A DNA stretch of 64,000 bases from Galdieria sulphuraria (taxonomy: Eukaryota > Rhodophyta > Bangiophyceae > Galdieriales > Galdieriaceae), in assembly GCF_000341285.1 (NCBI RefSeq), contig NW_005178461.1, positions 62,001 to 126,000 of the forward strand. Direction: 5' to 3'. Below the pieces are notes generated by a model, which saw nothing but the letters and a program-made list of their open reading frames with translations, was not told where the DNA came from and ran no database searches. The position numbers were made by a program, and so were the translations under genes. This document shows, piece after piece, positions 13,584-59,188 of this stretch (within the stretch, counting starts at the first letter, position 1; each line of letters begins with the position of its first letter).

Positions 13584-16500
13584 CTATTCAACCAACTTTC
13601 GTGGAAACCATAAATCAAACAATTGAAAATAGCTTCGTGTCGACAATTCTCGGGTAAAAGAAATGCCGGAGGAACGATATGTTTCGATAAAGTTATGAAT
13701 GAATTGTTTGCAGCTCCAAGGAACATGTGAAGAATACTGTAGAGTTTCCAAACAACTCGCAAGTCTTTGAAACTTGGAGTCATCCGTATCTTCCATTAGC
13801 TGTTTCCATGTTTCTCGAAAAACATGTGAGAATATACAAGTAATAAAGAGCTCCAAAGTCATGTCTCCTTGTTTCGAACATCCAAGATTACTCACAAGCG
13901 ATGAAAATAATTCCATATTTTTCAATAAACTTTCCAAATCTTCAAGTGATAAACGAAATCCTTGTATAATGGAACATATTCCTTCCAGAATACTACCACC
14001 ATTCTTGTAGTCTCGTATCATGCCTGGATAATCTCTATCTATGGCACCTAATACACTTAGTATCTTTTTGAGTTTCCTCCACTGAACACTACTGGTGTCC
14101 AATACAAACACACTTGGAGCTGCTCGACCTAAGACGACTTGATGCGCTCGATTAGCTAAATGAACACAACTAAAAAGAGGATATTCATCTGCTTCCATAT
14201 GTAGCAAGACGCAAAGATGATCAACCTCTTCTATAAATTGAAAGTTGTATCGAGAATAAATACATGCCGCTTCTTCAAACCAAGAAGCGGGCACACCAAG
14301 TTCTTCACGTAAAAATCTATCTGACGATAGCTTTCCATCCGTTCCTTCTACTTCTTCCACTATAATCCAAGGAAACCAGTGGATAAATACATTTTTCAGA
14401 TAAAACATGTTATTATTTCCAAAGACTTCACAAGACCACAGTACGTAAAATGCCCAAGTATACAAATGCATCATTTCCAGTTGAATAGCAAACGAAATGA
14501 TAACCTTGGGTTCCAAATACGATGTCGCACAAATGCTTGACAGAATCTCACAAACTAGCCAAGGTTTATGAGCATCCAAGGCATCATAAACTACGCCATA
14601 TGCTAATGGAGTGGCTAGGTGCATCCATTGCACATGTTCGGGATACAAATCTGCGGCAATGCATAACAATACATAGCAAGCATCGTAAATGAGACTGTCT
14701 GATTTCAAACCTTTTGAGGCTTCTAACTGTTCATGTTCGGGTACTGTTATCACAATATGAGGTGGAACTGGAGGAGCAACAAATTCATTACTTTGCCATT
14801 CATCAATATATGATTGTAGAGAACACTTTAGTCCATCCGAATCAGTTACCAAAGCCCCTGAGCCATACCAGAAATGCAACCCAAAAGTCCTATACCAAGA
14901 TAACGAAAGATTCTCGGTAGCATGTAAAATATCCCCACTTAGTAAAGCATAAATACGATCCAAATCCTTCGGTACGTGTCCACAATAGAAACGATGAATC
15001 TTCAAACAACTCGATCGATAGCCTTCATCTTGCAACTGCATACCCTTAGCAACCATACATGCCAATCGGAAATTCTTCGTCTCACTACAAAACTTCACAG
15101 CTTGTTCAATCTCACCTCTAGTTAACAAGTGAAAAATATAAAGAAATTGATCTTGAGCAGGATTTCTCTCCTCTTGCGACCAGGTACAAGCAAAATTCTG
15201 CAACCAACCTGACAGATGACGCCTAAATAAAAGCAACTCAATATCATGTGATGTTCTAGTATCCTGGTCGAGGTCAATATTTTGGACAAAGAGAACAAGC
15301 AAAAGTCGAAGGACAAGCTCAAAATGTTGATTACCACTAAAACCTGCTTCTAAAATAAGATGTTGCAGTGTTTTCATGACAACCTCACGATGCCTAAAGG
15401 GAAATCGAAAACTGGGACGTCTGTACACAAAGGAATCGTTCATTTCTTCGGTATCAAAGCTCAGTTTCCAAGAAGAGAAATGAATCCGAAGGGTCTTTTG
15501 AATAAATGAATGTTCCCACTCTTCAGCTTGCTCATGAATAAAAACAGGTGAAATAAAGGGTCGATTAGATTCCATAAAACTTGGAATTGGAAAAGCGACT
15601 TGAAAGCCTGGGCCTACACTGGCTCTAAAAGAACGACTCAAAAATGAAAGTGGCTTCCCTTTCATTTCTGTTTCTGTGTAAAGGAACGAATTGTTCAAAG
15701 ACACTCGAAAACACAACTCTAAAAACCGTCGAGTAAATTTGCGATTCTTAGTTGAGCCCTTTTGCATGGGTTCTTCTATTTCATCTTTAAATGACTCCGC
15801 ATTCAACCAACCAGGCACTTGCTCTGGGGAAGTTTTCATAGAAGATGGAGACTTTTGTATCACATTTCGCAAGTCAAAATGTTGCTTATTGGGTTGGCTC
15901 TCTTCCATCTTACTATTTGAGGAAAAAAACTGCTGTTCTGGTGTTTTACCTAATTCTGCCGAAAATATATTCGACTTGAAAGGATTTTTTCTCGATGATA
16001 AAAGCATTCTAGAAGAAGTCCATTTCTTGCCATCTTTTGAGTGAATAAACGTGTTCAAATCCATCTGACTCTCTTTAGAAGTGCCGACTTTTTCGTCCAC
16101 TGACTCCTTAATGTTCATTCGTTCCACAGTTGGAAACTCATCTTCTGCTTCATCTTCATGAATTCGTTCGATTTCCTTATCAAATACAAGGTTCAAGGAA
16201 GCAGATGTGTGCCCCAAACTGCTTTCAAGTACAACTTCCTCTTCACTCGACTCATCTTCGCTATCTGGAAGCCCATACCTGCTAAAATGAGGGACTTCAA
16301 AAGACCACGTGCCTTGGGTAGCGTCATATCCTAAGAATGTTAGACCTTGTTTCTCACAATGAGACTTCAGCTTCGCAGTAAAGTTGGTAACACTGGCAAC
16401 GTCCTTCAGTGGTTGTCCTGTCTTTTTATCCATTTTCCAAACCTTGTGAAGGCTCACTTTTGCAGGTTTATTCAGGCCAATACCAACTTCGGGCTTTTCT

Positions 16501-19307
16501 GATTCATTCGGATAAACAGTCACTTCACGGTTTTCAATAATAACCAGGCGGTCAAGATCCAAGTTGCGTACGTCTGTTTCGCCATACCATTGAATTTCTC
16601 CTATGTCTCTTCGGCCCACAGTAAAGTGGAATACATGACTAAGATCCTCATCTCCCATCCTGCGAAGTTTTTCTATACTTGGGGAAGTAAAATAGGTAGG
16701 TTTTGTCAAAATAGGAGCGCTACTCCTTTCATCCATTTTTGAAACAGACTCTAACCTAGAGGCCTCCGGTGACAAGTGTTCTTCATAAAATTCTCGATAT
16801 GACGAATACACTGAAGGAGATCTAAGGTTACCCGAATACTGTCCAGGAGATCGCAATGGAGTAGGTTTGGCAACATGACTCTGTTCTAGCAAATCTGTGG
16901 TTTTACGTTCTGTTGGAGAGGAAATCAATCCATTTGTTTTCTCAAGTTCCTCTGAAGACTGTACCGTAGGCGATGACGAAGGAAACGAAAGCTTCCTTTC
17001 AGGAGGCGACTTCCAGCCACTAGCAAAATTTCTCCACTCTCCATTTGAAATGTCTCCTTTGACATCTGATCTTGGGGTAATAATTAACCGTTTCATATCC
17101 GATCTTCCAATGGCTGGCGACTTTAACAAAGGACTACTGCCATCTGCTTCTACCAAGGTGAAGTGTTCCGGACTAAATACAGATACTGGTTTTTTTGTTT
17201 CAAATAAAGGAGAACTCAAAGACAACGATGAACGTAGACTTCTAGCATGAATACGAGCAAATGAGCGAGCAGAAGGCCTTGCAATGGAACTGCCATTTGA
17301 AAAAGACAGGCTGGTTGAAGAGTTAGTGCTTTCAAGCGAGTTGTTCGTGCCTGAAGACTTGCCAAGTGACAAAGAGGCTGCTTCAAAGATAGGACTCTTT
17401 CCATATGGGGTATTCATATCATTGAAAGCAACACTTTGAGAAGTTGCAAATGACCAGTTCTGTTGCCCCTGTAGATTATTCGGTAAAATGCTTGAGTTTT
17501 GAGTTCCAAATAAAGGAGCACTTCCCATAGAAAATGAGGAACTTTGTTGGAAAGGTGCGGAAAAAGTTGGTGTTGAACCAAAGAGCCCTGAACTGGAACT
17601 TTGTAGTCCTGAAAAAGAGTTTCCAACACCACTAATACCCAAAGCAGGTGCTGCGAATCCTCCAGTGTTCGACTGCTGTCCCATTGGAGATAGAATATTG
17701 GTTGTTGGATTACTTGAAGAAAATGAGCCGAAAAGAGATGTACCGCTAGAAGCTGCTGGTAAACTTCCAAATAATGCTGAGGTTGTTTGCGGAGATGTCG
17801 CAAATCCTCCACCGAACAATGAACCACTTTGCTTCGATGAATCCGCTCCAAACGCAAATGAGTTGGCAAATGGACTAGAAGAAGCAAAAGTTGAAGAACC
17901 AAAAGAAGCTGAGCTACTAGAAGCAGAGCCAAACCTGTTTCCACCACCAAAACTGGAACCAAAAGAGCCAAGATTAAGTGTAGGTTGACTAGGCGCACTT
18001 GTATTTCCAAATGAGCCTCCAAATGCGGGTGCAGTCGATGTATTTCCAAAGATAGAAGTAGAGCCAAAACTACCGAGCTGTTGGTTTGGCATAGATGTAC
18101 CAAATCCAGAAAAAGGCTTTTGACTGGAATTACTGCTAAATAAACTCGATGAAGAAGAGCTTGATCCAAAAGTTGTCGCTGCCTGAAAGGGAGCACCGCT
18201 TTGTGAGCCAAAAGCTGGAACCGGAGTGGAAACACCAAAGACTGAAGAACTTGAGCCAAATCCTGTTGACGTCTGACCGAAAGGAGACGAACCCAACCCA
18301 AACCCTGGGACTGAGGATGGTTGCGAAGAACCAAACGCTGTAGAAGTATTGCCGAAGAGCGAACTGGTAGATGCGCCAAAGCCTGGAGTTGATATGGCAG
18401 GCGAGGAAGCAAAGAGACTACTCGAAGGTCCTCCAAACCCTGTATTGATAGAAGATGTACCAAAACCACTTCCAACAGGTTGAAATGTTGAAAGAGAAGA
18501 ACTATTCTTTTTTCCCAATAGATAATCTTCGTAGCGCAGTTCTTCAAAGGATTTATCTTGATAATCTGGCATTCTTGAAATAGACATATACTTTACGTTC
18601 ACTCCACCACCATCATATTCTTGTATAGGTTGAAACTTAGGGTTGCCTGTCCCTTTCAAAGTATTTCCTTGTGCGGAACCCTGACCGAGACTCGTAGAGA
18701 CGTTAGGAAGGGTGTTGCCAAAAGCGCTAGTTGAGAGCGGAATAGTGCTCTGAACACTCTTTGCTCCGAATGCAACAGAACTGTTACCGAATGTCGGTAC
18801 ACTTTGAGTTGTTTGTGTACCTAAGCCTACAGAACCGAAGCCTCCCAAGGAGTTGGCGCCTCCTGCAAAAGAGGGTTGATTAAAACTACTTGCTGGGAAA
18901 GGAGTCGATGAAGCAAAGACAGCTTGAGAATTACCAAAATTCGATCCAGATCCGAAAAACGAAGGGGTATGTTGACTAAAAGCAGGTTGTCCGGGATTGA
19001 CATTCGTAACTGCGTTGCCAAAGGCGGGCTGTGCCTGTCCAAACGGTGATGGAGGAACTGAAGAGGGAGCTGCTCCTGAAGGTGGTACTCCAAATCCTGC
19101 TTGCGGCGTCACACTACTTGGAGTACCGCCACCACCGAAGACAGAACCACCCTGGAAAACGTTGGGACTCGAACCGAACGAAGGAGCGCTCTGAGAAGTA
19201 GCAAATGGGCTAGGACCTCCAAAAGTTGGAGTTGCACTTCCAAAAGAAGCAGCACTAGTAGTCTGTGAACCAAATAACGGTTTTCCAAAGTTCCCCCCAA
19301 GTGACAT
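13584..19307 (-). CDS. NUP98: Nucleoporin NUP98-NUP96 precursor
   Basis: One uninterrupted frame of 1907 codons. Residues 1-690 are FG/GLFG-type repeats rich in S, G, N, Q and F. They are interrupted near residues 236-270 by a GLEBS-like segment (SISRMPDYQDKSFEELRYED) that in the family binds RAE1. An autopeptidase domain (peptidase S59) spans about residues 865-1010 and ends in HFSRYG near residue 1005, the self-cleavage site of NUP98. The following about 900 residues match NUP96 (helical, with WYRTFGLHFWYGSG), a scaffold of the Y-complex. Thus a single precursor is expected to be cut into a mobile FG Nup and a scaffold Nup. Start is the ATG leading into the FG region. Absence of introns in 5.7 kb is notable against its neighbours. 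Confidence 0.95.
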   Translation of the reverse strand: MSLGGNFGKPLFGSQTTSAASFGSATPTFGGPSPFATSQSAPSFGSSPNVFQGGSVFGGGGTPSSVTPQAGFGVPPSGAAPSSVPPSPFGQAQPAFGNAVTNVNPGQPAFSQHTPSFFGSGSNFGNSQAVFASSTPFPASSFNQPSFAGGANSLGGFGSVGLGTQTTQSVPTFGNSSVAFGAKSVQSTIPLSTSAFGNTLPNVSTSLGQGSAQGNTLKGTGNPKFQPIQEYDGGGVNVKYMSISRMPDYQDKSFEELRYEDYLLGKKNSSSLSTFQPVGSGFGTSSINTGFGGPSSSLFASSPAISTPGFGASTSSLFGNTSTAFGSSQPSSVPGFGLGSSPFGQTSTGFGSSSSVFGVSTPVPAFGSQSGAPFQAATTFGSSSSSSSLFSSNSSQKPFSGFGTSMPNQQLGSFGSTSIFGNTSTAPAFGGSFGNTSAPSQPTLNLGSFGSSFGGGNRFGSASSSSASFGSSTFASSSPFANSFAFGADSSKQSGSLFGGGFATSPQTTSALFGSLPAASSGTSLFGSFSSSNPTTNILSPMGQQSNTGGFAAPALGISGVGNSFSGLQSSSSGLFGSTPTFSAPFQQSSSFSMGSAPLFGTQNSSILPNNLQGQQNWSFATSQSVAFNDMNTPYGKSPIFEAASLSLGKSSGTNNSLESTNSSTSLSFSNGSSIARPSARSFARIHARSLRSSLSLSSPLFETKKPVSVFSPEHFTLVEADGSSPLLKSPAIGRSDMKRLIITPRSDVKGDISNGEWRNFASGWKSPPERKLSFPSSSPTVQSSEELEKTNGLISSPTERKTTDLLEQSHVAKPTPLRSPGQYSGNLRSPSVYSSYREFYEEHLSPEASRLESVSKMDERSSAPILTKPTYFTSPSIEKLRRMGDEDLSHVFHFTVGRRDIGEIQWYGETDVRNLDLDRLVIIENREVTVYPNESEKPEVGIGLNKPAKVSLHKVWKMDKKTGQPLKDVASVTNFTAKLKSHCEKQGLTFLGYDATQGTWSFEVPHFSRYGLPDSEDESSEEEVVLESSLGHTSASLNLVFDKEIERIHEDEAEDEFPTVERMNIKESVDEKVGTSKESQMDLNTFIHSKDGKKWTSSRMLLSSRKNPFKSNIFSAELGKTPEQQFFSSNSKMEESQPNKQHFDLRNVIQKSPSSMKTSPEQVPGWLNAESFKDEIEEPMQKGSTKNRKFTRRFLELCFRVSLNNSFLYTETEMKGKPLSFLSRSFRASVGPGFQVAFPIPSFMESNRPFISPVFIHEQAEEWEHSFIQKTLRIHFSSWKLSFDTEEMNDSFVYRRPSFRFPFRHREVVMKTLQHLILEAGFSGNQHFELVLRLLLVLFVQNIDLDQDTRTSHDIELLLFRRHLSGWLQNFACTWSQEERNPAQDQFLYIFHLLTRGEIEQAVKFCSETKNFRLACMVAKGMQLQDEGYRSSCLKIHRFYCGHVPKDLDRIYALLSGDILHATENLSLSWYRTFGLHFWYGSGALVTDSDGLKCSLQSYIDEWQSNEFVAPPVPPHIVITVPEHEQLEASKGLKSDSLIYDACYVLLCIAADLYPEHVQWMHLATPLAYGVVYDALDAHKPWLVCEILSSICATSYLEPKVIISFAIQLEMMHLYTWAFYVLWSCEVFGNNNMFYLKNVFIHWFPWIIVEEVEGTDGKLSSDRFLREELGVPASWFEEAACIYSRYNFQFIEEVDHLCVLLHMEADEYPLFSCVHLANRAHQVVLGRAAPSVFVLDTSSVQWRKLKKILSVLGAIDRDYPGMIRDYKNGGSILEGICSIIQGFRLSLEDLESLLKNMELFSSLVSNLGCSKQGDMTLELFITCIFSHVFRETWKQLMEDTDDSKFQRLASCLETLQYSSHVPWSCKQFIHNFIETYRSSGISFTRELSTRSYFQLFDLWFPRKLVE

Positions 19308-36911: not shown

Positions 36912-39900
36912 TCAGGGAGCTTCCATGGTTTGTTCTTTTTGTTCCACGGGACATATACCATATACATAAGGACCTCGAACTCCACCATGCAGGTGCCTAT
37001 CCCATTCTCCAGTCACTTCAAGATTCAATATATCACTTAGAAAAGATTTGATCTTATATATCTTTAAAAGTTTCTTCTTATCTGGACACCACTGATGGAA
37101 AAGATCTTTCATATTTCGAACTCGTACAAAATCACGAGAAATACGACGATCTACATTATCCGTCAACTCATAGTATTGGAGAAGGAATTGCGCAAACAAT
37201 TGACCTTCATGTTGGTTATCCTTTGCAACTATCTCCAGCATTGCACGTCTTTCTTCGCTCGTTTGTGGTGGCTGTCTCCAATCGCTACTACTTGTTTTCT
37301 GCGATAAAGAAGTTCTATTGTGACTGGAATGCGCTGTCATAAGTTGTTTTCGCTTCAACTGAGTTTGCCTCACTCTCTTTGTGGTTCCTGTTGTTTCTCT
37401 ACGACTTTCTTGCATACCTTCCATGTTTATTGTAATGATTTCAGGGGAATCATCCGGATGACTAGATATATCGTTCCATTTCTGAGTTGATTCTTCCATC
37501 GGAGCAGAAGAATGGGCAGTAGCTTTTACTTTGCGTTTTGTTGAAGGAAAAGTTAGCATTGAAGAAGAAGGAGAAACGTCCGTCATTCTATGTTCACTTG
37601 GATAACTTTCAAGCTTATGAGAAACAGGATTTCCATAAAATGGACCCATATGAACAGTCTCTTGCGTACTGTTATCTAAAAATGGTTGATAGAGGTAATT
37701 GAGATTCGTTTCTGCCGAAGGAATTCTTCGATGAAAATTGTTTTGGGCGTAAACAGCGGTTTCCAAATGCACATCTTCCGAATAACTTCTTCTTTCTTGT
37801 GCAGAATAAGGAGTCGACATCCATGTTGGAAGAAACACTTGTGAAACATGCTGTTGGCCCATAGAAGGACTATAAGAACCTACAAAATTGGAGATATTTG
37901 ACTGTGCCGCAGTCAGTTGATCGAGTTTGTTAGTCATATAGGAAGAGGAATCATCGCGACTCTCTAAATGAAAATAGGCAGTTTCATCTTCTTTCTGAAA
38001 GGATAGATCATTCAACATCAATTCATCATCCTCATTTTCGGAATTAAATAACAAATGTTCCAAAGAACTCACTGGAAGGGACGGTGGTGAATCATATTGT
38101 AAAAGTTGCCACAAAGATGGTAATAGACTTAAAGCTGATGAGCCTTGTTCTGTCATGGATGTCTCTTCTAGCATTCGGTTGGACTCCTCTCCTATTTCTT
38201 CATCAGGCCATTCTTCAATCACATCGTTCACAGTTGGCGATGAAAGACTCTTTGGTAAATGCTGTCCGTCTACTACCTGCCTCATAATTCTCAATGCTTC
38301 CTTTGCTCTACTTCTTGCAAAAGATACATCAACAATAGGAAACGGATAGGTCTTTCCCAACGTAATATTTGCATTCGCTAATACATCTTCGGGTGCCTGC
38401 CAAGGACAATGTATGTATTTGTCCTGTAAAGAAGCCAATTCTGGTATCCACTGCCTAACGTATGTTCCACTAGAGTCGTATTTACGACCCATTCCTATAG
38501 GATTCACCAAACAACTCAACGGAAAGGAGTCCGTATTACATCCCGCAGTCCATTGCCATCCTAAAGTATTTGCTGCCAAGTCTCCATCTATCAAGTGTGA
38601 ATAAAGGAAATGCGCTCCCAGTTGCCATGGAAGCAATAAATAACGCGTTAAAAAGGACGCGAGAAGAAAACGAAGAATGTTATGAATCCATCCAGTGGAC
38701 CGTAACTCACGAATGGCTGCATCCACCATAGGATAACCTGTGTGACCTACAGACCAACGATCTAAGAGAGAATAATCACGCTCCCAGGGGAAAAGATTGA
38801 AAACGCTTTGCAATGGAGTATCTATAGCATTTGGATAATAATAAAGTATATGATAGGCATATTCTCGGAGGCACAAGTTTTTCAAAAATGCCTTAGCAGC
38901 TTGTGAATAGAGATACCAATTTTCACGGTTGTTTGCAACTCGTTTTCTAACCATATAAAAAATTCTCTTCACACTCAATTCTCCAAATTTGAGATGTGGA
39001 CTCAGTTTAGACGTTCCTGTTAGACTTCTTCGATATCTTGCTGCACCAAACTTATCAAAAGAGTCGCTCAAAAATGCCTTCAAGGTTCGTTGAGCCTGAC
39101 GACAACCAGGTTTCCAATTATTCTTCGATTCAAACGCTTCTATATCTTCTTTTGAAAGAAGATCCAACTGACCCACTTGATTCTCAAGTTCAGTGTATGG
39201 TAACGATGTGCAATACTGTTTGCTGATACTCAATGGCTCGGGTGGAGGCAACTGAAGCATCCATGCTCTCATATAAGAATGAAAATCAGGAAAGAAGGGA
39301 GAATGATCATTCTGCAGTTCCCAAGGTTCAACAAAAAGTTCTGACTTGAATGAGACCAATTTAACGGTACTTCCAGAAAACATCGAAATGACTCGTTCTT
39401 CCGCCTTCAGATAGATTGGTTCATAAGCTCTATTCCAAAAAATGACTGTTGCACCAATTTCACGAACTACTGATGGCAACTCTTCTTCTGCTAATCCATT
39501 TCTACACAGCAACTTGACACCCAATTTTATCAGTTCCCTTTCTAGAACCAGCAGAGAGGACCGGAGCCACCACAACCAAGGTTTACTAGGATACCATCTT
39601 CCAAAGGAGTTTGGACTCCAGAGAAAAATAGCATAACATTTTGTTTTTCTTTCTAAGGCTGCTAATAATGCTGGGTTGTCATCTAAACGGAGGTCGTGAC
39701 CTCGAAACCAAACCAGAGAACTTTCACGTTGACCAGTACCTGCACTTTCAATTTGTACTTGAGCTTTAACACTGGATTGGATATCGAGTTTGTGTGAATC
39801 ACCGTATGAGATCATTTCAGGGTCTTTGCAACTTTCTTGCTTGGATTTGCTAACTCTGTTGCCGTGGCTTTTTTTGGCAGGCGAGTTACATTCTTCTTCC

Positions 39901-40040
39901 TCCGACGACATAATGCTATTCAAGTTATTATTCACTTCCATGGTTAACGTTCCTTCAATGTGCTCTACAAGTTGCGTCGTATATGTTGCATTTTTATATC
40001 TCTTCTTTTTGGTAACTTTCCTCTCGGAGCTCAACCACAT
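36912..40040 (-). CDS. Cryptochrome/photolyase-family flavoprotein with long N- and C-terminal extensions
   Basis: Single exon, about 1042 residues from the first ATG (later ATGs at 39941 and 39911 are possible). The photolyase core spans about residues 105-610: SSLVWFRGHDLRLDDNPALL, FGAARYRRSLTGTSKLSPHL (FAD region), GYPMVDAAIRELRSTGWIHN and GTYVRQWIPELASL, all typical. GWQWTAGCN rather than the plant-cry GWQY is present. Before the core, about 105 residues include KKSHGNRVSK, a possible nuclear signal. After it, some 400 residues are mostly low complexity and then end in a compact domain of about 115 residues. Cryptochromes are blue-light receptors; some members repair DNA. Class (plant-like cry versus CPD-like) needs a tree. 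Confidence 0.88.
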   Translation of the reverse strand: MWLSSERKVTKKKRYKNATYTTQLVEHIEGTLTMEVNNNLNSIMSSEEEECNSPAKKSHGNRVSKSKQESCKDPEMISYGDSHKLDIQSSVKAQVQIESAGTGQRESSLVWFRGHDLRLDDNPALLAALERKTKCYAIFLWSPNSFGRWYPSKPWLWWLRSSLLVLERELIKLGVKLLCRNGLAEEELPSVVREIGATVIFWNRAYEPIYLKAEERVISMFSGSTVKLVSFKSELFVEPWELQNDHSPFFPDFHSYMRAWMLQLPPPEPLSISKQYCTSLPYTELENQVGQLDLLSKEDIEAFESKNNWKPGCRQAQRTLKAFLSDSFDKFGAARYRRSLTGTSKLSPHLKFGELSVKRIFYMVRKRVANNRENWYLYSQAAKAFLKNLCLREYAYHILYYYPNAIDTPLQSVFNLFPWERDYSLLDRWSVGHTGYPMVDAAIRELRSTGWIHNILRFLLASFLTRYLLLPWQLGAHFLYSHLIDGDLAANTLGWQWTAGCNTDSFPLSCLVNPIGMGRKYDSSGTYVRQWIPELASLQDKYIHCPWQAPEDVLANANITLGKTYPFPIVDVSFARSRAKEALRIMRQVVDGQHLPKSLSSPTVNDVIEEWPDEEIGEESNRMLEETSMTEQGSSALSLLPSLWQLLQYDSPPSLPVSSLEHLLFNSENEDDELMLNDLSFQKEDETAYFHLESRDDSSSYMTNKLDQLTAAQSNISNFVGSYSPSMGQQHVSQVFLPTWMSTPYSAQERRSYSEDVHLETAVYAQNNFHRRIPSAETNLNYLYQPFLDNSTQETVHMGPFYGNPVSHKLESYPSEHRMTDVSPSSSMLTFPSTKRKVKATAHSSAPMEESTQKWNDISSHPDDSPEIITINMEGMQESRRETTGTTKRVRQTQLKRKQLMTAHSSHNRTSLSQKTSSSDWRQPPQTSEERRAMLEIVAKDNQHEGQLFAQFLLQYYELTDNVDRRISRDFVRVRNMKDLFHQWCPDKKKLLKIYKIKSFLSDILNLEVTGEWDRHLHGGVRGPYVYGICPVEQKEQTMEAP

Positions 40041-40809
40041 ACTTCGAAAAGACAAATATAAATCAACTACAATTCATGTGATTTGAGACGCTCCTTTAAC
40101 ATGCAGTTCAATACTCTCTTAGTCGTAAGCCTCGCCGTAATCAAACGGTTCGACTCAAAGTTTCTGCTCAAAACCCCACAAGGTCATTTCCCCACATAAA
40201 AATCCCGACAGAATTGTGATTCATCACGGGTTTTATTCCGCCTCCCTCCTTCTCACCACAGTTGGCGACTTGGATATCATTTTTATTGCAACTATAGCAA
40301 CTTTCATTCATATTAATGGCATCTATCAACAGCAACTGTAAAGCAATACTAGTGTTCATGGTATAGAGTTCAGTGTCTGTTATAGCTACATTGGTTGTAG
40401 TCTAGATAGGACTCATGAACTTTGTAAAGAACATTGGACGAGCTTCATTGGTACTTTCAACTCGACAAAAACAAGAAAACATCGAACTTATATATATACA
40501 CCTTCTATCTATATCTTTTGTTTGCACAGATAGAATAAGCAGTCGAATACAAAAAAAGCATATGTTGACATCGAAGCAGCTTAATTTGTTGACACCGAGT
40601 AAACAGAGCTTGAAAACATCATGTGATTATTCAGTGACCATTATATGTCATATTCTACTACAAATTGTAGTCTTTGCATATATACAAAAGTGGAACCTGT
40701 ACATGGAAGCCCATTCTTCCTTCCATCAATGAAAAGAATGGAAAGCAATCGGTACAAGTCTCAGAGATTTCCGTTGGTTTCATTTTGGTATTCTTGTGGA
40801 GTTATAGCC
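40041..40809. other. Intergenic region upstream of cryptochrome and NUP58
   Basis: These 769 bp separate two divergent genes. Short open frames exist (for example 40415-40732 plus and 40168-40359 minus) but none shows a recognisable family, codon pattern or clear splice partners. No RNA gene was recognised. Confidence 0.4.
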
Positions 40810-42060
40810 ATGTCCTTTTCTTGGAATACTTCAAACCCCGCTTCTTCCCCAGCTCTTGGAGTGACACAAAATATGGCTTTCTCTGCTACTCAAAACAATC
40901 CAGCTCCTCAGGGTACAACAAGCCAAAACTTGCAACCAAGTAGTTTGTTTTCTTCTCCCATTCAATCACCGTGGACGGGAACGCAAAATCAACCTAGTCT
41001 TCAAGGAAACTTGAAGCCCCCGACCTTTGGTTCTTCTGGTATGACAACAACACAATCAAGCTTATTTTCGCAACCTTTAGGTATTTTCTCTTCTTCCACG
41101 AACGCAAGTCCTACACCGACTATCAATACGACACAAAATACTCAAACTATAAAATCGATTCCCTTTTGGCAACTCCCGGACGCTGTAAAGACTGAAATTT
41201 TAGAAATAGAAAAGTTCATCAGAAACGAAAGACAGAAGTGTTTGAAACTAGAAACCCAAAACAACTTGCAGCAGTTGGAAGAGACGGAAGCGAGAATCAA
41301 CAAAACAGTTCAACATTTCCAAATAGCCAAGAACACTTGGGAGTCGCTAGTTGTGAAAGTGCAAGCCTGTAAGAACGTTATCAAGAACGAAATGAATAGC
41401 GTGGAAACTGTCTATGCTGTTATGGAATCAGCAACAAGGGATGACATGACACCGATTCCTCGCAGAAGTGAGGAAGCTGTCAAGAAACTTTTTGATAAAT
41501 TTTTTTCTTATTTAAAAGAAATGGAGGAGAACATGAATGAATATGAACAACAAACGCAAACAGCAATGTCCGTACTACAGAATGTATCCAAAAGTATGGG
41601 ATGGAAAGGTCAAGCAGTAGAAGATGTATTGAAACAAGAATATGAATATTTTATTTTTGTTGCAAGTAGACTAGCATATCTTAGAGAGAAGTTTCGTCAG
41701 TTGAAAGAGAAATATCTGAAACTGTTGCAGCTTCGCAATCCGGATGCTACAAGTCCATTTGAAGTTAGCACCTCTTCTGGGAAGCCTAGTTATTGGAATG
41801 AACGTTATCACACCCCGATGAAGAACATAAGTGTTTCTGCACAACAACCCAATCATAGTTTTCTTACAACACCAATATCAAGATATAAGCCACCGTTACC
41901 GATGAAAGGGTCTCCGACAAGTTTGGGAAAGATGGATGAAAAGAGTAGTTTTGCCACACCCTGGACAGATTATTCTCGTAAACGAGATGTTGAAAACTCT
42001 TCATTTAAAACCCCGTTGCCTCAAGTAACCCGTTTTAGTGTTTCTTCATTTCTTCAATGA
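40810..42060 (+). CDS. NUP58: Nucleoporin NUP58/NUP45-like FG nucleoporin
   Basis: Start ATG at 40810 gives 416 residues. Residues 1-115 are S/T/N/Q/P-rich with FG-like dipeptides (TFGSSG, SLFSQPLG). A coiled-coil region follows from about 120, SIPFWQLPDAVKTEILEIE to residue 330, with EQQTQTAMSVLQNVSKSM and FVASRLAYLREKFRQLKEKYLKL, which matches the NUP58 helical core of the NUP62-NUP58-NUP54 channel complex. The C-terminal 90 residues are again Ser/Thr/Pro-rich. Assignment as NUP58 (not NUP62) rests on the REKFRQLKEKYL helix. NUP54 is also in this window at 62163. Confidence 0.75.
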   Translation: MSFSWNTSNPASSPALGVTQNMAFSATQNNPAPQGTTSQNLQPSSLFSSPIQSPWTGTQNQPSLQGNLKPPTFGSSGMTTTQSSLFSQPLGIFSSSTNASPTPTINTTQNTQTIKSIPFWQLPDAVKTEILEIEKFIRNERQKCLKLETQNNLQQLEETEARINKTVQHFQIAKNTWESLVVKVQACKNVIKNEMNSVETVYAVMESATRDDMTPIPRRSEEAVKKLFDKFFSYLKEMEENMNEYEQQTQTAMSVLQNVSKSMGWKGQAVEDVLKQEYEYFIFVASRLAYLREKFRQLKEKYLKLLQLRNPDATSPFEVSTSSGKPSYWNERYHTPMKNISVSAQQPNHSFLTTPISRYKPPLPMKGSPTSLGKMDEKSSFATPWTDYSRKRDVENSSFKTPLPQVTRFSVSSFLQ

Positions 42061-42306
42061 AAATCATGTCAAGCAAAATATTTCATAGGTATTTTTTGGA
42101 GTTTCTCGTTGGTCATGTAGTACATTTTATTGTGTATAGAATGGACCACGTTCATGGAGATATATGGCTCTTATTGTTGTGAAACTTGTTTGTAATATAT
42201 CTAATAAAGCTAAAAATCTCCTATTCATGTGGCTTCGTATTGCCATTGTTTTTGGGTTGTGTCCATAAATTTTTGATAAACCCTTAAGAGATAAGTTTTC
42301 TAGTTG

Positions 42307-42807
42307 ATGGATGATAGGGAGACCACGTCTCCATTCTCATCTTTGTACAAGAGTTCCAAAGTTACCTTTTTGTTTACGAGTTCTCAAACAACTCTACTGG
42401 TTTCATCTGGATATCGTTTACTGTCATGGAGAAGGTCACACAAGTTTAGGAAGTGTTACTTGGCCAAGTGTGTCTCCCAACAATCACTCAACGGCGACTT
42501 GACTTTTCCTTCCAAGAAATACTTATTGTTGAAAGATGTGCAACTGTTGGGAATCGTTCCTCTCATTCCAAACTGGGTATTATTGGCCTTGTATGGTTAC
42601 TTGGGGTTTCGATTTTTTAGTGGATTTGAACAGACAACTTACAACAAGGTAACTGAGCTTTTTTATTTATCACAAGTTGATAATTGTCAGTAGAATAGTA
42701 GATTAGTGCTAAGTATTTTATGGCCTGTTATGTTTATTGTCAATGATCGTTTTCGACAAAACTTTAAGAAAGCTTTAAAACAAGGAGACGATGAAGAGGA
42801 TGGCTAA
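42307..42807 (+). CDS. Small conserved plastid-type membrane protein (cyanobacterial-like LLWPV motif)
   Basis: Exons 42307-42648 and 42694-42807 joined by a 45-nt intron, 151 residues. The N-terminal about 65 residues are basic and Ser/Thr-rich (transit-peptide-like). Two hydrophobic stretches follow: LLGIVPLIPNWVLLALYGYL and LVLSILWPVMFIV, then a basic RFRQNFKKALK and an acidic tail. The phrase ...YNKNSRLVLSILWPV...N.RFRQNFKKALK is the pattern of a small conserved membrane protein I associate with plastids and cyanobacteria, of unknown function. The splice is supported by the join of TTYNK with NSRLVL. The next gene starts 88 bp downstream. Confidence 0.6.
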
Positions 42808-42894: not shown

Positions 42895-45372
42895 ATGTTC
42901 ATACTTTGTGGTCGATTGTTTCATCATTGTATTCCACAACGTTATGGAAACTTTACACTTGGTGAAAGAAAAAAGTTCGACCCAAGACCAAGTTATGAAG
43001 CACTTGCAAAAACTAAAGGTTATCACAAACGCTCGTTAGGCATCCAACATAACTCGGCCACCCATATGACGACAACACCACGCAAAGCCAACAACCCAAA
43101 ACCTCATCTCGAATACATTCAAGTAGTTGTTTTGGCTCCCAATGAAAAACTATTTTACAGTTTTCTTACCTTGGCGGATATTTTTCAACAGCAAATGTCT
43201 CGTAAAGAAGCAACCCAAGTGAACCCCACCGAAAATAATGAGTCGATGGAATATTGGAACAATATTCCTTTACTCAACTCTAAAGGAGAATTTGTTTCCA
43301 GAGAAGTCAGTCATTCATCTTTCTATCGTTCTACAACACTATCCCATTTGCTACCTGCTTTACAACCTGTGTTGAAGGTTTTCCTAATAGAACAATGGTT
43401 ACAAGACCAAGGCAACCATAATAGTTATTTATTGTTACAACAAGCTGTTCAAAGTGCAGATGTAATAGTAACAGGTTGGATTTTCAATCAGCAATTGGCA
43501 ATTAGAGTAGCAGAAATATTGAAACCTGTTCATCAACAATTGTTAGCCTGCATTGTGTTTCCTTCTTCTCCAATTCTCATTCCATATAACAAGTTGGGGC
43601 AATTTGAACTCTGTCGATGGACAGAAACACAGAATATATTATCTCATTTGTGTTTTTCCAAAGAGACATGCTCAGATAGTCCAAAGACACAAGAAGAGAC
43701 AAACCAACTGGAGTTGAAACTGTTGGAATCGTTCCGAATATTACCAAAGCTATTGAATTACATTGGAGAGGAAAAGAGGGAAGATATATGCACATATATG
43801 CTTTCTTATCGTCATTGGGTTGCTTCGAGTCCAGAAGATGTGAAATTGTGTCTTTCTTTTATCATCGAAAGAAGTCTAATGAATATGGAAAAGGAGAACA
43901 AAGAGGAAGATGTATGGATGACAAAGCAGGAAGAAGATGCGCAAACTATGAAAACAAAGATAAAGCAGTTGTGGCAAGCCTATTGTGAAAGCACATCTTC
44001 CACAGTTACTATTCGTTCCTTACCTTCCCCGAAGAAGCTACAAAGTAGTGGTCATCATGAACTGGCTCGTCTCATTGCCATTTACATGCATCAATATCAT
44101 TGCCAACTAAAGGATATTTCCATTTTGTGCCAATTCAAATATTCGATATCCTGCCAACGCGAGTGGAACCGATTTGCGCAACAATTACACCAGAAATTCA
44201 CTTTGCGCTATCCTGTTGAGTTGGAAAAGGAACTGTTACAATTGAGTGAAAAGATTCATAAAGGAAAGCACCTTATGCCACTTTCTTCAGATGTTTTGGC
44301 AGAAAATCGACATTTGCATCAATCCATTCTTCAATTGGGAGGTTATAGGAAGGCAGCTAAAATCTTAGGTTTGCAAAGATATCGTCGTTCATCCAAGCCA
44401 ATCTCGAAATCAATGCAAGAGTTTACTCATTTTGAGAAAGAATTGCGGACTTTTTTGCATCAACGTGCACAAAAGATAGATAGTGAAAGAGCAGAGTGGA
44501 TACAAAGAATCATGCCAAGAATGGTGGACTTTCGTGAAGCAGGTAGAACAGATCTATTGGATGCCATTCAATATCATGGAGGACAACATGCAGTTGCCAG
44601 AAAACTTGGTTTGCAGATGCATTATCAGGCAACATGCAATGAATATATTCAACATTTTAGTTGTCTAGAAAAGGAACTCAAGCGTTTGATATCTGAAGAA
44701 CTGGGAGATATCTACCAATCGAATGAGATGCCAACCCTTCATGACCTTAGACAATTAGGACGAATTGATTTGATAGCCGCTATTCGTATACATGGAGGAA
44801 TGCACAAAGTAGCCAGTAAAATGAATTGGAAGCTTTGTAAAGGCTCGAGGTCTACCCAGCTCAAGATAAAAGACTTGAATTGGCTAAAGATAGAGTTGGA
44901 AAGGTGGATAAAGAAACAAGGATTGACTGAACTTTGTATAGTACCTACAACGAGGCAGTTATTGGAAGATGGGAGACCTGATTTGGTTCGAGCTATTCAA
45001 TTTCACGGTGGTAGGGAAACCGTTGCTAAGCAGTTTGGAATGGTAAAAGGAGACAAGACCATCTTTGATGAGAGTTTCTTTTTAACAGATTGGAGTGGTT
45101 TGGAAGAAGAAGAAGAAAGTCAAGTCAATTCATCTAAGAAAACAAATACTCGAAGAGAATCACATTACTGGTGTCGACTGGAAAATGTACGTAAAGAACT
45201 ATTAGCTTTTATATATGAATATGGACAACCGGGTGTGATGCCGACAAGAGCTGAATTGTTAAGAGCTGGACGCGGGGATCTTTTACGTGGAATGACTATT
45301 CATGGTGGACAAAAGGTTGTAGCCAGAGATTTATCGCTTGTCATGGTTTCTCAAGTCAAAAAGTCGAAATAA
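42895..45372 (+). CDS. Magnesium-chelatase H N-terminal domain fused to tandem GR-DL-AI-HGG repeats
   Basis: From the ATG at 42895 the single exon has 825 codons. Residues about 70-330 match the N-terminal domain of Mg-chelatase subunit H (CHLH/BchH, DUF3479): ADVIVTGWIFNQQLAIRVAE, CIVFPSSPILIPYNKLGQFEL and FRILPKLLNYI followed by WVASSPEDVKL. The cobaltochelatase-type catalytic part does not follow. Instead about five clear repeats of about 60-90 residues occupy residues 440-825, each with an LEKEL-type helix, then MPT..L...GR.DL..AI..HGG...VA..LGL (for example MPTRAELLRAGRGDLLRGMT). A weaker copy precedes them near 360-430. The start is basic (MFILCGRLFHHC), compatible with plastid import. 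Function unknown; a tetrapyrrole or light-signal link is inferred only from the domain. Confidence 0.7.
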   Translation: MFILCGRLFHHCIPQRYGNFTLGERKKFDPRPSYEALAKTKGYHKRSLGIQHNSATHMTTTPRKANNPKPHLEYIQVVVLAPNEKLFYSFLTLADIFQQQMSRKEATQVNPTENNESMEYWNNIPLLNSKGEFVSREVSHSSFYRSTTLSHLLPALQPVLKVFLIEQWLQDQGNHNSYLLLQQAVQSADVIVTGWIFNQQLAIRVAEILKPVHQQLLACIVFPSSPILIPYNKLGQFELCRWTETQNILSHLCFSKETCSDSPKTQEETNQLELKLLESFRILPKLLNYIGEEKREDICTYMLSYRHWVASSPEDVKLCLSFIIERSLMNMEKENKEEDVWMTKQEEDAQTMKTKIKQLWQAYCESTSSTVTIRSLPSPKKLQSSGHHELARLIAIYMHQYHCQLKDISILCQFKYSISCQREWNRFAQQLHQKFTLRYPVELEKELLQLSEKIHKGKHLMPLSSDVLAENRHLHQSILQLGGYRKAAKILGLQRYRRSSKPISKSMQEFTHFEKELRTFLHQRAQKIDSERAEWIQRIMPRMVDFREAGRTDLLDAIQYHGGQHAVARKLGLQMHYQATCNEYIQHFSCLEKELKRLISEELGDIYQSNEMPTLHDLRQLGRIDLIAAIRIHGGMHKVASKMNWKLCKGSRSTQLKIKDLNWLKIELERWIKKQGLTELCIVPTTRQLLEDGRPDLVRAIQFHGGRETVAKQFGMVKGDKTIFDESFFLTDWSGLEEEEESQVNSSKKTNTRRESHYWCRLENVRKELLAFIYEYGQPGVMPTRAELLRAGRGDLLRGMTIHGGQKVVARDLSLVMVSQVKKSK

Positions 45373-50522: not shown

Positions 50523-52121
50523 TCAGTTATTCAAATCCATTAGTATGAAAAATAACACAAAACTTAAAATGAAAAGGAAACTAAAATATCCAAGCCATCG
50601 TTTCCTCTTTTGCAAGTATTCGAGATGGGTCATCGGCAATGGAAAGTAAGTAAGCAGCCAAGAAAAGACATCTTCTCCATCCATTCTCCATACAGGAGCC
50701 ATATTAGATATTCCAATGAAGGCTGACAGTATGAACAAAATTCGAAAGAACTGTTCAAATTTACCGATGGGATTCCATACAATTAGGAATTTATACAACC
50801 ACCAAGGACTTATACGTGGCACATATTCCGTCCACTTTACAGAATGCAGCAACGCATCAGGACTGGTCACCAGTACAGTTTGATGGTAGTTTTGTTCACT
50901 AGGAATCCATCTCTTCAAAGAAACTAATCGGCCACCGGTTCCAGTATAAGGAACAAAATATTGATCATCCACTAGTTTGTCTTCACAGAATCCTAAAGCA
51001 ACTTCTTGGGTTTCTAACCATTCCTCTGAAATACAAACGGCATTTGGATAACCAGTATTAAAAAAAGAAGACTGAACAAAACACTTCCAAACAGATTCTT
51101 CAACTTGCCAACTGTCACTGGAGAGACCCGGACAACACATATGAAATGGACGAAACCACTTACTGCTTGTAATGTTGTTCTTGTTCAAACAGATACCCAC
51201 AAAAGTCTCAGATGTAAGTTCCCGTATTACTTCCTTGATATCGTCCAACTTTCTTATTTCTCTATTGTTTACGCTCACCAATCCATCTCCGATAGAAAAG
51301 CAGTTTAACAAGCGACTACTTTCTTGTCCCGTTGAAATGAACCCCGAAACAGTCATCTGTTGCCTGAAGAAAGGTGCAACAAGTAACGGAAGCAGAAATA
51401 CAACAACCAAAGAAAGTAGACATAGCAACAAGTTAAACCAAAATCCAGCACAAACTATGCGCAGTCGACTCTTTGTGTTGAGATCAAGTAAACTCTCTTC
51501 AATGGTCACGAACATTCCAGGAATATAGAAAGCTAAAAAGAGCCCAACTTTTTCTACTCCAATACCTTCCACATAAGCAGTTATTGCGTGGCCTAGTTCG
51601 TGAAAAGGAAGTATCACCAATAACCCAACCCAACATAACAGCCAAGAAACTGTTAGGGGCAATTCAGGGTCTAATTTTAACCATTTCATCAAGTGGAATA
51701 GTAAAGCGTTTGTTACTTCCATCAGCAATTTTTTAAAAGATGAAATCAAAGGAAACTTATTGGCTAGTTGCCAAGGGTCCAATCTCCAAAAGATACTTTG
51801 CGTTACTACACAAGAAACAAAAATCAAATACATAGTTATTCCAGTTATAACAAGTCCCAACATAAGAATACAACAAGCCATGACACCAACTATACTTCCC
51901 AACTGAAAGAAAAGGCGCAAAACCCGTCTATGTATTTTACACCAAGTCTTCAAAGTGGGAACAGCTAACTTCAAGCTCCATATAACGCAACCTTTTGTTA
52001 CTTGAATAGAGTGTGTTCTCAACCACAAGGACCATCTGCCTTGGACGAAACTATCTAATGTCTGAAACACTAAGTAAACAGCCAACCAAACCACAGAGCC
52101 GATGACCCACAGCGCCACCAT
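50523..52121 (-). CDS. Site-2 protease (MBTPS2-type zinc intramembrane metalloprotease)
   Basis: One exon; ATG at 52121 preferred over the upstream GTG codons; 532 residues. The zinc motif HELGH is in a membrane helix near residue 172 (LVILPFHELGHAITAYVEG), and the second motif, SNMAPVWRMDGEDVF, is near residue 475 (the LDG motif supplies the third zinc ligand, D). GLFLAFYIPGMFVTI matches the S2P family pattern after HEXXH. Several hydrophobic segments flank a PDZ-like stretch. S2P releases membrane-tethered transcription factors such as SREBP/ATF6 after a first cut; plastid S2P-like proteins also exist. The gene is divergent with TspO, 61 bp between the two ATGs. Confidence 0.9.
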   Translation of the reverse strand: MVALWVIGSVVWLAVYLVFQTLDSFVQGRWSLWLRTHSIQVTKGCVIWSLKLAVPTLKTWCKIHRRVLRLFFQLGSIVGVMACCILMLGLVITGITMYLIFVSCVVTQSIFWRLDPWQLANKFPLISSFKKLLMEVTNALLFHLMKWLKLDPELPLTVSWLLCWVGLLVILPFHELGHAITAYVEGIGVEKVGLFLAFYIPGMFVTIEESLLDLNTKSRLRIVCAGFWFNLLLCLLSLVVVFLLPLLVAPFFRQQMTVSGFISTGQESSRLLNCFSIGDGLVSVNNREIRKLDDIKEVIRELTSETFVGICLNKNNITSSKWFRPFHMCCPGLSSDSWQVEESVWKCFVQSSFFNTGYPNAVCISEEWLETQEVALGFCEDKLVDDQYFVPYTGTGGRLVSLKRWIPSEQNYHQTVLVTSPDALLHSVKWTEYVPRISPWWLYKFLIVWNPIGKFEQFFRILFILSAFIGISNMAPVWRMDGEDVFSWLLTYFPLPMTHLEYLQKRKRWLGYFSFLFILSFVLFFILMDLNN

Positions 52122-52182
52122 GAAAAATGAAGTTTGCACCACATACCTTGAAAGCGATTGATGCTACTAATTAGTTGAATTC

Positions 52183-57496: not shown

Positions 57497-59122
57497 CTAC
57501 AAGTCTTCTTGGGTGATATACACATTTTTTTTCTTGGTTTCGTGGTCAACAGAGAAAACTTTATGAAACACGAATTCTACTTTTGATCCTGTCTCTGGTA
57601 TTTTCTCAGATTGTGATAAGAGTCTGACTCGTAACTTGCCGGATTTCCCGAATTTGCCCTCGATGTATCCACGAACACCATTCTCAAAACTGACTCTCAT
57701 TTTTTCGAAAATTTCGACATTGGCGTCTTTTTGAAAAAATCCCTTCACTATGAGAATTTGATTATCTTGTATTCTTTCAACAGTTCCTTGACGTTTCTTT
57801 ATCTTGGTAAGATGCAACATATCATTCTTTTTATCTGTTACGACTGCTGATGCCGTATCATGCATTTGCGCCAAGACATCTCCATGGAATGCAATTCTAC
57901 ATCGACTCACCTCAGTGTCCCAGTCTAAACGCGAAGCTATGAATCCAACTTTCGGATAAATACATAGAGGAATGTCAGTTTTTATCAAAGCAAAAAAAAT
58001 CTTGTTAGGATTGGAATCTCTATCATCATTTTCCAGTTGCTTTTCATAGAAGTACCTTTCATCGAATGAAAAACAATCCTTCATTTGGCAATGAGAATAC
58101 ATGGAGAAGAAAGTTACTGTAGCAACTGCTGTGGAATGTCCAACAGTCACATGAAATTTTGACTTGGACAAACACTCTTCTCGATAGAAACGTACTTTGT
58201 GTGCCGAGGTTATAAAACAAGTGGATAAAGACAAATATCCTGGAATAGCCAAGAATCCTCGTTCGACTTTGTCGGAAGGACATCGCGATATACAAATGGC
58301 TACTCGTTCTCCTTGTCCACATTGTGTAACTGGTTTACGATATATCTGCATACTCTTTACCTTCCTTGATATTCCAATATTTGGTATGTGTATCAGATCA
58401 CCCACATGAATGGCACCTTGTAATACAGTTCCTGTGAAAACAGTTCCATGTCCCTTTACTCCAAAACAATGATCAAAAGCAAATAGAAACTTTCCTTCAT
58501 GGCTTCTCTCGGGAATCGGTATATACTTCGCAATAGTACTTAGAAGCTCTTCCATTCCCCAAGGCTGCACATTTTCTGATATATGAGGTTCCAGTTTCTC
58601 TCTTTGACTGGGATTAGCAGCAACGAACACATAAGGGGCATCCTTAAACTTTGTTTGTTGAAGTGCCTTGAAAGTTCTCTTCTTCATTAGAGCCATCTTT
58701 TGAGTGCGTTCATCGGGAGGAATCAAATCTATCTTGCTGAATACAATGATTGCTTTGTCAGTCACCAATTCTCCAACTACTATACATTCAGAAGTTTGCA
58801 TTTGTATACCCTTTGTGACATCAATCACTAATAGTAAAGCATCTATAATCTTCGAACCTCCTAATACTGTCTTCAAGAGGGAAGCGTGACCAGGACAGTC
58901 AACCAAAGTTATCTGTACTTGTTCAGAGGTTTCTTCTTTATCTTTTTGTAACATAAAAGCAGAAAATCCCAAGTCCAAGGTGATTCCTCTTTCAGAACTC
59001 TGAGGATGCTTGTCTAAAGCAGCTGTCGATAGTATAGTGCTAATGGAACGAACCAAACTAGTTTTTCCACTATCCACGTGTCCCAAAACACCAATATTTA
59101 TATTTATAGTATTTTTATTCAT
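57497..59122 (-). CDS. Selenocysteine-specific elongation factor (eEFSec/SelB)
   Basis: One exon, 541 residues from the ATG at 59122. GTPase motifs: NIGVLGHVDSGKT (G1), ERGITLDLGFS (G2), DCPGH (G3); G4 reads FSKIDLIPP, i.e. SKxD where NKxD is usual. Further family phrases: FDHCFGVKGHGTVFTGTVLQ and FHVTVGHSTAVATVTFF. These match eEFSec, including the C-terminal eukaryotic extension. The protein brings Sec-tRNA to in-frame UGA codons with SBP2/SECIS, so it implies selenoprotein synthesis in this organism. The unusual serine at G4 deserves checking. Convergent with ZNHIT2; divergent with HisC with 66 bp between the ATGs. Confidence 0.92.
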   Translation of the reverse strand: MNKNTININIGVLGHVDSGKTSLVRSISTILSTAALDKHPQSSERGITLDLGFSAFMLQKDKEETSEQVQITLVDCPGHASLLKTVLGGSKIIDALLLVIDVTKGIQMQTSECIVVGELVTDKAIIVFSKIDLIPPDERTQKMALMKKRTFKALQQTKFKDAPYVFVAANPSQREKLEPHISENVQPWGMEELLSTIAKYIPIPERSHEGKFLFAFDHCFGVKGHGTVFTGTVLQGAIHVGDLIHIPNIGISRKVKSMQIYRKPVTQCGQGERVAICISRCPSDKVERGFLAIPGYLSLSTCFITSAHKVRFYREECLSKSKFHVTVGHSTAVATVTFFSMYSHCQMKDCFSFDERYFYEKQLENDDRDSNPNKIFFALIKTDIPLCIYPKVGFIASRLDWDTEVSRCRIAFHGDVLAQMHDTASAVVTDKKNDMLHLTKIKKRQGTVERIQDNQILIVKGFFQKDANVEIFEKMRVSFENGVRGYIEGKFGKSGKLRVRLLSQSEKIPETGSKVEFVFHKVFSVDHETKKKNVYITQEDL

Positions 59123-59188
59123 TCCTGAACGAGTCTTCCTGTTCAAGTCTTCAGACTTGCAGTTGAATCATTGTTGACGAATTTTTAC

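Follow-up and report, generated by a model that had tools for sequence, protein, structure and literature searches.

The H subunit of Mg-chelatase counts among the GUN proteins of plastid-to-nucleus signalling, and the part of it that concerns us here is its N-terminal head, domain I. The porphyrin pocket of ChlH has been proposed to lie between domains III and V (PMC5098175), and the crystal dimer is formed by domains I and V (PMC5098175, PMC4951491), with Gly195 and Glu199 located in domain I and Glu199 salt-bridged to Lys1018 of the partner (PMC4951491). Reported cross-links to ChlD include one in head residues 150-173 and fall mostly in domains III-VI (PMC6604950), and ChlH lacking its N-terminal 159 residues had normal porphyrin affinity, kept Gun4 binding and showed about 10% activity (PMC4255732). 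Truncated CHLH proteins tested in Arabidopsis all failed to restore plastid signalling or Mg-chelatase function (PMC5098175), and the same source describes S92F, near the CHLH N-terminus, as causing a strong gun phenotype with slight tetrapyrrole defects. Taken together, the deletion, pocket and dimer data point to the head of ChlH as a part for docking, distinct from the pigment pocket. Two isoforms of ChlH have been described (PMC10156173). In a red alga, a Mg-protoporphyrin signal couples plastid and nuclear DNA replication, and the part of that report cited here gives Fbx3 as the receptor and leaves ChlH unmentioned (PMC3539659).

The gene described here lies in a window, by which we mean the whole 64,000-nucleotide stretch of Galdieria sulphuraria DNA that was analysed. 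Kinesin, Nup98-96, photolyase and eukaryotic selenocysteine elongation factor domains mark this window as eukaryotic nuclear DNA, and its GC content is 38-41% in 8-kb steps. Whereas in ChlH/BchH the chelatase core follows the head, in the window ORF, which shares ChlH head motifs, the head is followed by a tandem repeat array and contains about 55 inserted residues with no counterpart in ChlH. ChlH head and five-repeat array stand in a single open frame, with the following features:

42895..45372, plus strand: whole ORF, first in-frame ATG to stop, 825 aa
42895..43113, plus strand: basic N-terminal extension by composition, 73 aa with 13 K+R and 4 D+E
43114..43902, plus strand: ChlH head (domain I), residues 76-338, with Pfam, NCBIfam, PDB and ChlH-profile matches
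43195..43368, plus strand: ChlH-absent insertion, after the first strand and helix, with low pLDDT
43372..43800, plus strand: PF11965/DUF3479 match, residues 162-304, covering model positions 31-159 of 159
43954..44145, plus strand: w1, residues 356-419, a possible degenerate repeat copy, not established
44215..44385, plus strand: repeat w2, the most divergent of the established copies, leave-one-out score 21.4 bits
44425..44622, plus strand: repeat w3, leave-one-out score 55.5 bits
44659..44841, plus strand: repeat w4, leave-one-out score 53.4 bits
44878..45054, plus strand: repeat w5, leave-one-out score 44.2 bits
45181..45351, plus strand: repeat w6, nearest to the bacterial copies, leave-one-out score 66.2 bits

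The reading frame is free of stops from 42868, and the last base of its stop codon is 45372. Translation could start at 42895, at the next in-frame ATG (43066) or in an upstream exon, and the codon signal weakens upstream of about 42930. We trained a codon model on eight further ORFs of this stretch; applied in 150-base windows at a step of 90, it put the ORF frame top of the three forward frames in every window starting from 42930 to 45180. At the head-array junction (44010-44250) the codon score is about zero (0.01, -0.02), yet still higher than in the other frames, and about 100 nondescript residues lead from the head to the first sure repeat. GT..AG pairs can be seen by eye inside the head insertion, where a short intron would be conceivable, yet the codon score there favours coding. 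The basic N-terminal extension is compatible with a transit peptide, though no proof of one. Among six-frame stop-to-stop segments of at least 30 residues, no other one in the window resembled ChlH or the repeat, and PADLOC gave no match on the ORF.

An earlier note on this DNA had read 42895-45372 as a CHLH N-domain, at about residues 70-330, joined to five repeat copies and lacking the chelatase core, and had named the absence of a significant DUF3479 match as grounds for giving the idea up. The match is there: PF11965 hits the ORF at E 3.8e-16 with 60.1 bits against a curated cut-off of 27.4, which makes the head a member of that family. The proposed span was about right, since a first strand and helix (VVVLAPNEKLF...) at residues of about 77-105 is suggested by alignment and model, and the NCBIfam ChlH model matches residues 171-338 (E 4.8e-25). 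Synechocystis ChlH in the PDB also matches by sequence (E 6.7e-14). The missing core is borne out as well: a profile of 21 ChlH sequences, drawn from 80 kept cyanobacterial loci, aligns ORF residues 164-338 to ChlH 58-220 and scores below zero bits on the remainder, so that neither the chelatase core nor the ChlH region with the published porphyrin pocket is detected by it in the ORF. Similarity ends at about ChlH residue 220, and the next conserved ChlH stretch, YPDMGIWHPLAP, is missing from the ORF. With 87.6 bits on the ChlH/BchH equivalog, whose cut-off is 1300, the ORF does not qualify as a full-length ChlH.

The head has diverged considerably from its relatives. It is 25-30% identical to 20 ChlH heads and keeps 34 of the 105 columns invariant among them, the other 71 being lost, with the columns of the first helix doubtfully aligned. 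FPSxP, NKxG and LP.L.Y are kept, as are the positions of W193 (Trp193) and of Glu199, the dimer salt-bridge residue, which is E316 in the ORF; the Gly195 position is A312. A ChlH1 profile (23 rows) gave the head 75.6 bits versus 24.9 bits for a ChlH2 profile (11 rows), and by these profiles the head is ChlH1-like. In a tree it falls on the ChlH1 side, on a very long branch that is too long to trust. AlphaFold2 modelled the head with low confidence (mean pLDDT 56.5). At E <= 0.001 this model has 10 PDB fold matches, all to ChlH; normalised by query length, their TM-scores are 0.38-0.41. The model was built with 20 ChlH rows as input, so these matches serve as a consistency check only. Among cyanobacterial-phylum genomes PF11965 is present in 64 of 146, and every one of its 104 matches lies in a frame of at least 1219 aa, which makes a head standing alone unusual among these genomes. 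An oddity of that survey is a ChlH2-type match (G055:C1:2126327-2126797) within a 13,930-aa open frame. No plasmid record matched the head at E <= 0.01.

Behind the head, the repeat follows the consensus MP..GR.DL..AI..HGG..VA..LG. The count of five copies stands, as none of 5000 shuffles scored as high as the leave-one-out value of any of w2 to w6. A sixth copy, w1, was considered and set aside at 4.9 bits, a score reached by 22 of 5000 shuffles. The YW...N motif of w6 begins at 45163. Profiles free of window sequences place the array in the HGG repeat of cyanobacterial HTH proteins: one built from six cyanobacterial repeats gave w3-w6 35.0-57.9 bits and w2 7.1 bits, against a best of 7.9 bits in 2000 shuffles of residues 341-827, and one built from eight prokaryotic repeats gave w2 21.3 bits, a score that none of 5000 shuffles reached. 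The array has a basic pI of 9.46 and a net charge of +20, and the head a pI of 5.59; w3 and w4 are nearly neutral at +1 each.

Similar GYW..MP..GR.D..GG repeats presumably occur in plant plastid proteins as well. The repeats found no match over any cut-off in Pfam or NCBIfam, nothing better than E 0.011 in PHROGs and nothing better than E 1.1 among PDB sequences. A w6 model built from the five window copies, and so from only 5 rows, reached a pLDDT of 90.1 with four helices. With this model PDB and BFVD gave nothing at E <= 0.001 in fold searches, by which such small helical domains are easily missed, and an HTH-like fold is therefore not confirmed. The profile hints in that direction are weak, with YdaS at E 6.6e-4 and 19.9 bits (cut-off 30) and P22_Cro at E 0.2 and 11.9 bits (cut-off 30.2), both under threshold on the window ORF, and we did not adopt that fold. 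Membership in HNH_repeat (PF18780), a homing-endonuclease-associated family, was likewise rejected. The family is not listed for the window ORF and matched 1 of 11 lone repeats at E 0.012; its likeness is a weak match to the repeat of one relative (E 0.0069), which at 17.1 bits stays under the curated cut-off of 26. PMC8078820 offers no convincing template for the HNH_repeat family.

The nearest relatives of the array that we found are bacterial, in searches that took in prokaryotic, plasmid, phage and viral sets with the window as the sole eukaryotic DNA examined. Four prokaryotic proteins carry the repeat, two with HTH domains and two with DEAD/ResIII domains, all over cut-off. Against 72,556 plasmid records the array had one match, in Allocoleopsis franciscana PCC 7113 (tblastn E 4e-11), where plasmid pMIC7113.04 encodes WP_015211581.1; this protein combines HTH domains with three repeats and is annotated as terminase gpP-like, and its gene adjoins one annotated as recombinase family. 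A 51%-identical relative of this protein occurs in genome G188 alone among 292 searched, and its neighbour there has Resolvase and Recombinase domains; four further genomes of the 292 match with similarity outside the repeats. A plasmid search with P0004 returned 3 records, of which only Allocoleopsis covered the repeats. These two HTH proteins resemble the window protein in having the same repeat, in tandem and C-terminal, and differ in having HTH domains in place of the ChlH head, three copies and a neighbouring recombinase. The recurring order of a recombinase gene and then an HTH protein with three HGG repeats (L082 1330-4416 and L081 2566-5567) is possibly a mobile-element module in these two cyanobacterial records.

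An 11-repeat profile matched 3 of 386 genomes, namely G188, G140 and G252. The copies in the latter two, both searched as cyanobacterial phylum, scored E 2.0e-6 and 2.0e-5 (per one genome, with a model lacking these copies) and 66.2 and 68.8 bits once the model included them. Each protein has the same repeat as the window, with one copy detected before the DEAD and ResIII domains, an SF2-type ATPase; the two match each other at 52% and were found in 2 of 194 genomes. Loci L092 and L093 show these large helicase-like proteins with their one HGG repeat. The array found no relative in four cyanobacterial genomes (0/4), and exact-pattern scans of viral contigs, which are of low sensitivity, gave none. 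Phage searches yielded only E 0.1-0.3 matches of the array to Alt-like phage genes, which we take as chance, and nothing for the bacterial repeats.

Several other genes of the window deserve mention in their own right. Just upstream, 42304-42693 (plus strand) is a 129-aa ORF with one hydrophobic stretch. It had been described earlier as a plastid-type membrane protein, a label that finds no backing in Pfam or NCBIfam, where it has no match, or in 59 cyanobacterial genomes, where a search of its last 66 residues, run without a positive control, returned 0 hits. On the minus strand, 13584-19307 encodes a Nup98-96 precursor that includes the autopeptidase domain, and in the same 30-kb stretch 40645-42060 (plus strand) is an FG-nucleoporin-like ORF with a weak Pfam match under cut-off. 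The minus strand also holds a photolyase-family protein with long extra parts (36912-40055, a 1047-aa ORF), an M50 peptidase (50523-52142) and, at 57497-59146, the eEFSec domains of a selenocysteine-specific elongation factor, which suggest that the organism may make selenoproteins.

How might such a fusion work? We favour, at a probability of roughly 40%, the reading that this is the gene of an adaptor, which joins a docking module derived from the ChlH head to a basic array that probably binds nucleic acid; its mechanism, including the nucleic-acid binding, partner, localisation and role of the protein, is what we infer. A ChlH1-type head (domain I) would have been cut from the chelatase near a natural domain border, and a head so cut would carry out no Mg-protoporphyrin synthesis and probably no porphyrin binding, while what it brought along may be a module that docks autonomously in ChlH. 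The array would consist of five small helical domains and probably binds DNA or RNA, by analogy with the four prokaryotic carriers and their HTH or helicase domains. It could hold the protein on the plastid nucleoid, on a plastid transcript or on nuclear DNA as the head contacts a partner such as the Mg-chelatase subunits, and chlorophyll synthesis might thereby be coupled to gene expression or replication. The link to Mg-chelatase in particular is something we infer, because many conserved head residues have changed, and with 34 of 105 invariant columns kept the head may no longer bind the partners of ChlH. The lack of a fold match for the repeat model and the nearly neutral w3 and w4 also count against this reading, and the failed Arabidopsis truncations (PMC5098175) speak against signalling by the head on its own. 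The more specific proposal, that the protein tethers Mg-chelatase to the genome and so places or reads chlorophyll synthesis at plastid or nuclear DNA or RNA, seems to us unlikely.

Helical repeats frequently bind proteins, and the fusion could also be a Mg-chelatase regulator that binds ChlH domain V, ChlD or ChlI in competition with, or instead of, the real ChlH head, with repeats that act as a protein scaffold or dimeriser free of nucleic-acid contact. Retention of the salt-bridge Glu199 as E316 would fit such a protein, as would the crystal contact that the ChlH head makes with domain V of its dimer partner and the one ChlD cross-link reported for the head (PMC4951491, PMC5098175, PMC6604950). 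But only 34 of the 105 invariant head columns are kept, HTH or helicase domains are found in all four prokaryotic repeat carriers and the array is basic, and we hold such a regulator to be somewhat doubtful. It is also conceivable that the protein is a plastid or nuclear nucleic-acid factor in which the head is no more than a folded scaffold or a means of self-association and has no link to chlorophyll synthesis. The very long head branch, the 25-30% identity and the 71 of 105 invariant columns lost speak for this, as do the prokaryotic contexts of the repeat, whereas the kept FPSxP, NKxG, LP, W193 and Glu199 positions suggest continued selection on a ChlH-like fold, though not on its partners; we judge this alternative improbable.

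The earlier note had offered reuse of a paralogous H-domain either as adaptor or RNA/DNA factor or as tetrapyrrole sensor, and its proposals part ways here. The former is the best reading, given the HTH and helicase carriers and the basic array; the sensor, in which the head would bind porphyrin or Mg-porphyrin and control the array, has lost ground. Derivation of the head from a porphyrin-handling subunit and the red-algal Mg-protoporphyrin replication signal (PMC3539659) would lend the sensor some appeal, but the pocket has been placed between domains III and V (PMC5098175), removal of the N-terminal 159 residues leaves the porphyrin affinity of ChlH unchanged (PMC4255732), and the receptor of the red-algal signal is Fbx3, with ChlH unmentioned in the cited part of that report (PMC3539659). 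Since the pocket has been placed elsewhere and headless ChlH binds porphyrin normally, a porphyrin sensor is the least probable of the explanations we weighed. That the fusion is instead a gene-model artefact, in which two genes or exons of different transcripts share one open frame, would account for the nondescript 100 or so residues between the head and the first sure repeat and for the codon score near zero at 44010-44250. Against this are the 825 stop-free codons, the ORF frame being the best of three in all junction windows, and the lack of either module elsewhere in the window, and we regard an artefact as highly unlikely.

The adaptor reading draws on two modules that both have relatives, in a combination that, at the level of sequence, was not met before in the collections searched. 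No relative of the fusion of ChlH head and HGG array appeared in prokaryotic, plasmid, phage or viral collections, the window being the only eukaryotic DNA examined, and we found no description of the combination in the literature on DUF3479, ChlH paralogs, HGG repeats or Galdieria ChlH. The most interesting part is the repeat, which as far as sequence comparison goes is an undescribed family. It has no accepted library match and is common to a eukaryotic nuclear gene and bacterial HTH and helicase proteins, and is for that reason worth naming. A natural protein with the head but without the chelatase would reveal what the head alone can do. The fusion suggests a possible adaptor linking chlorophyll synthesis to DNA or RNA, and if the tether between Mg-chelatase and the genome were true, it would provide a direct-contact route for tetrapyrrole-linked plastid signalling.
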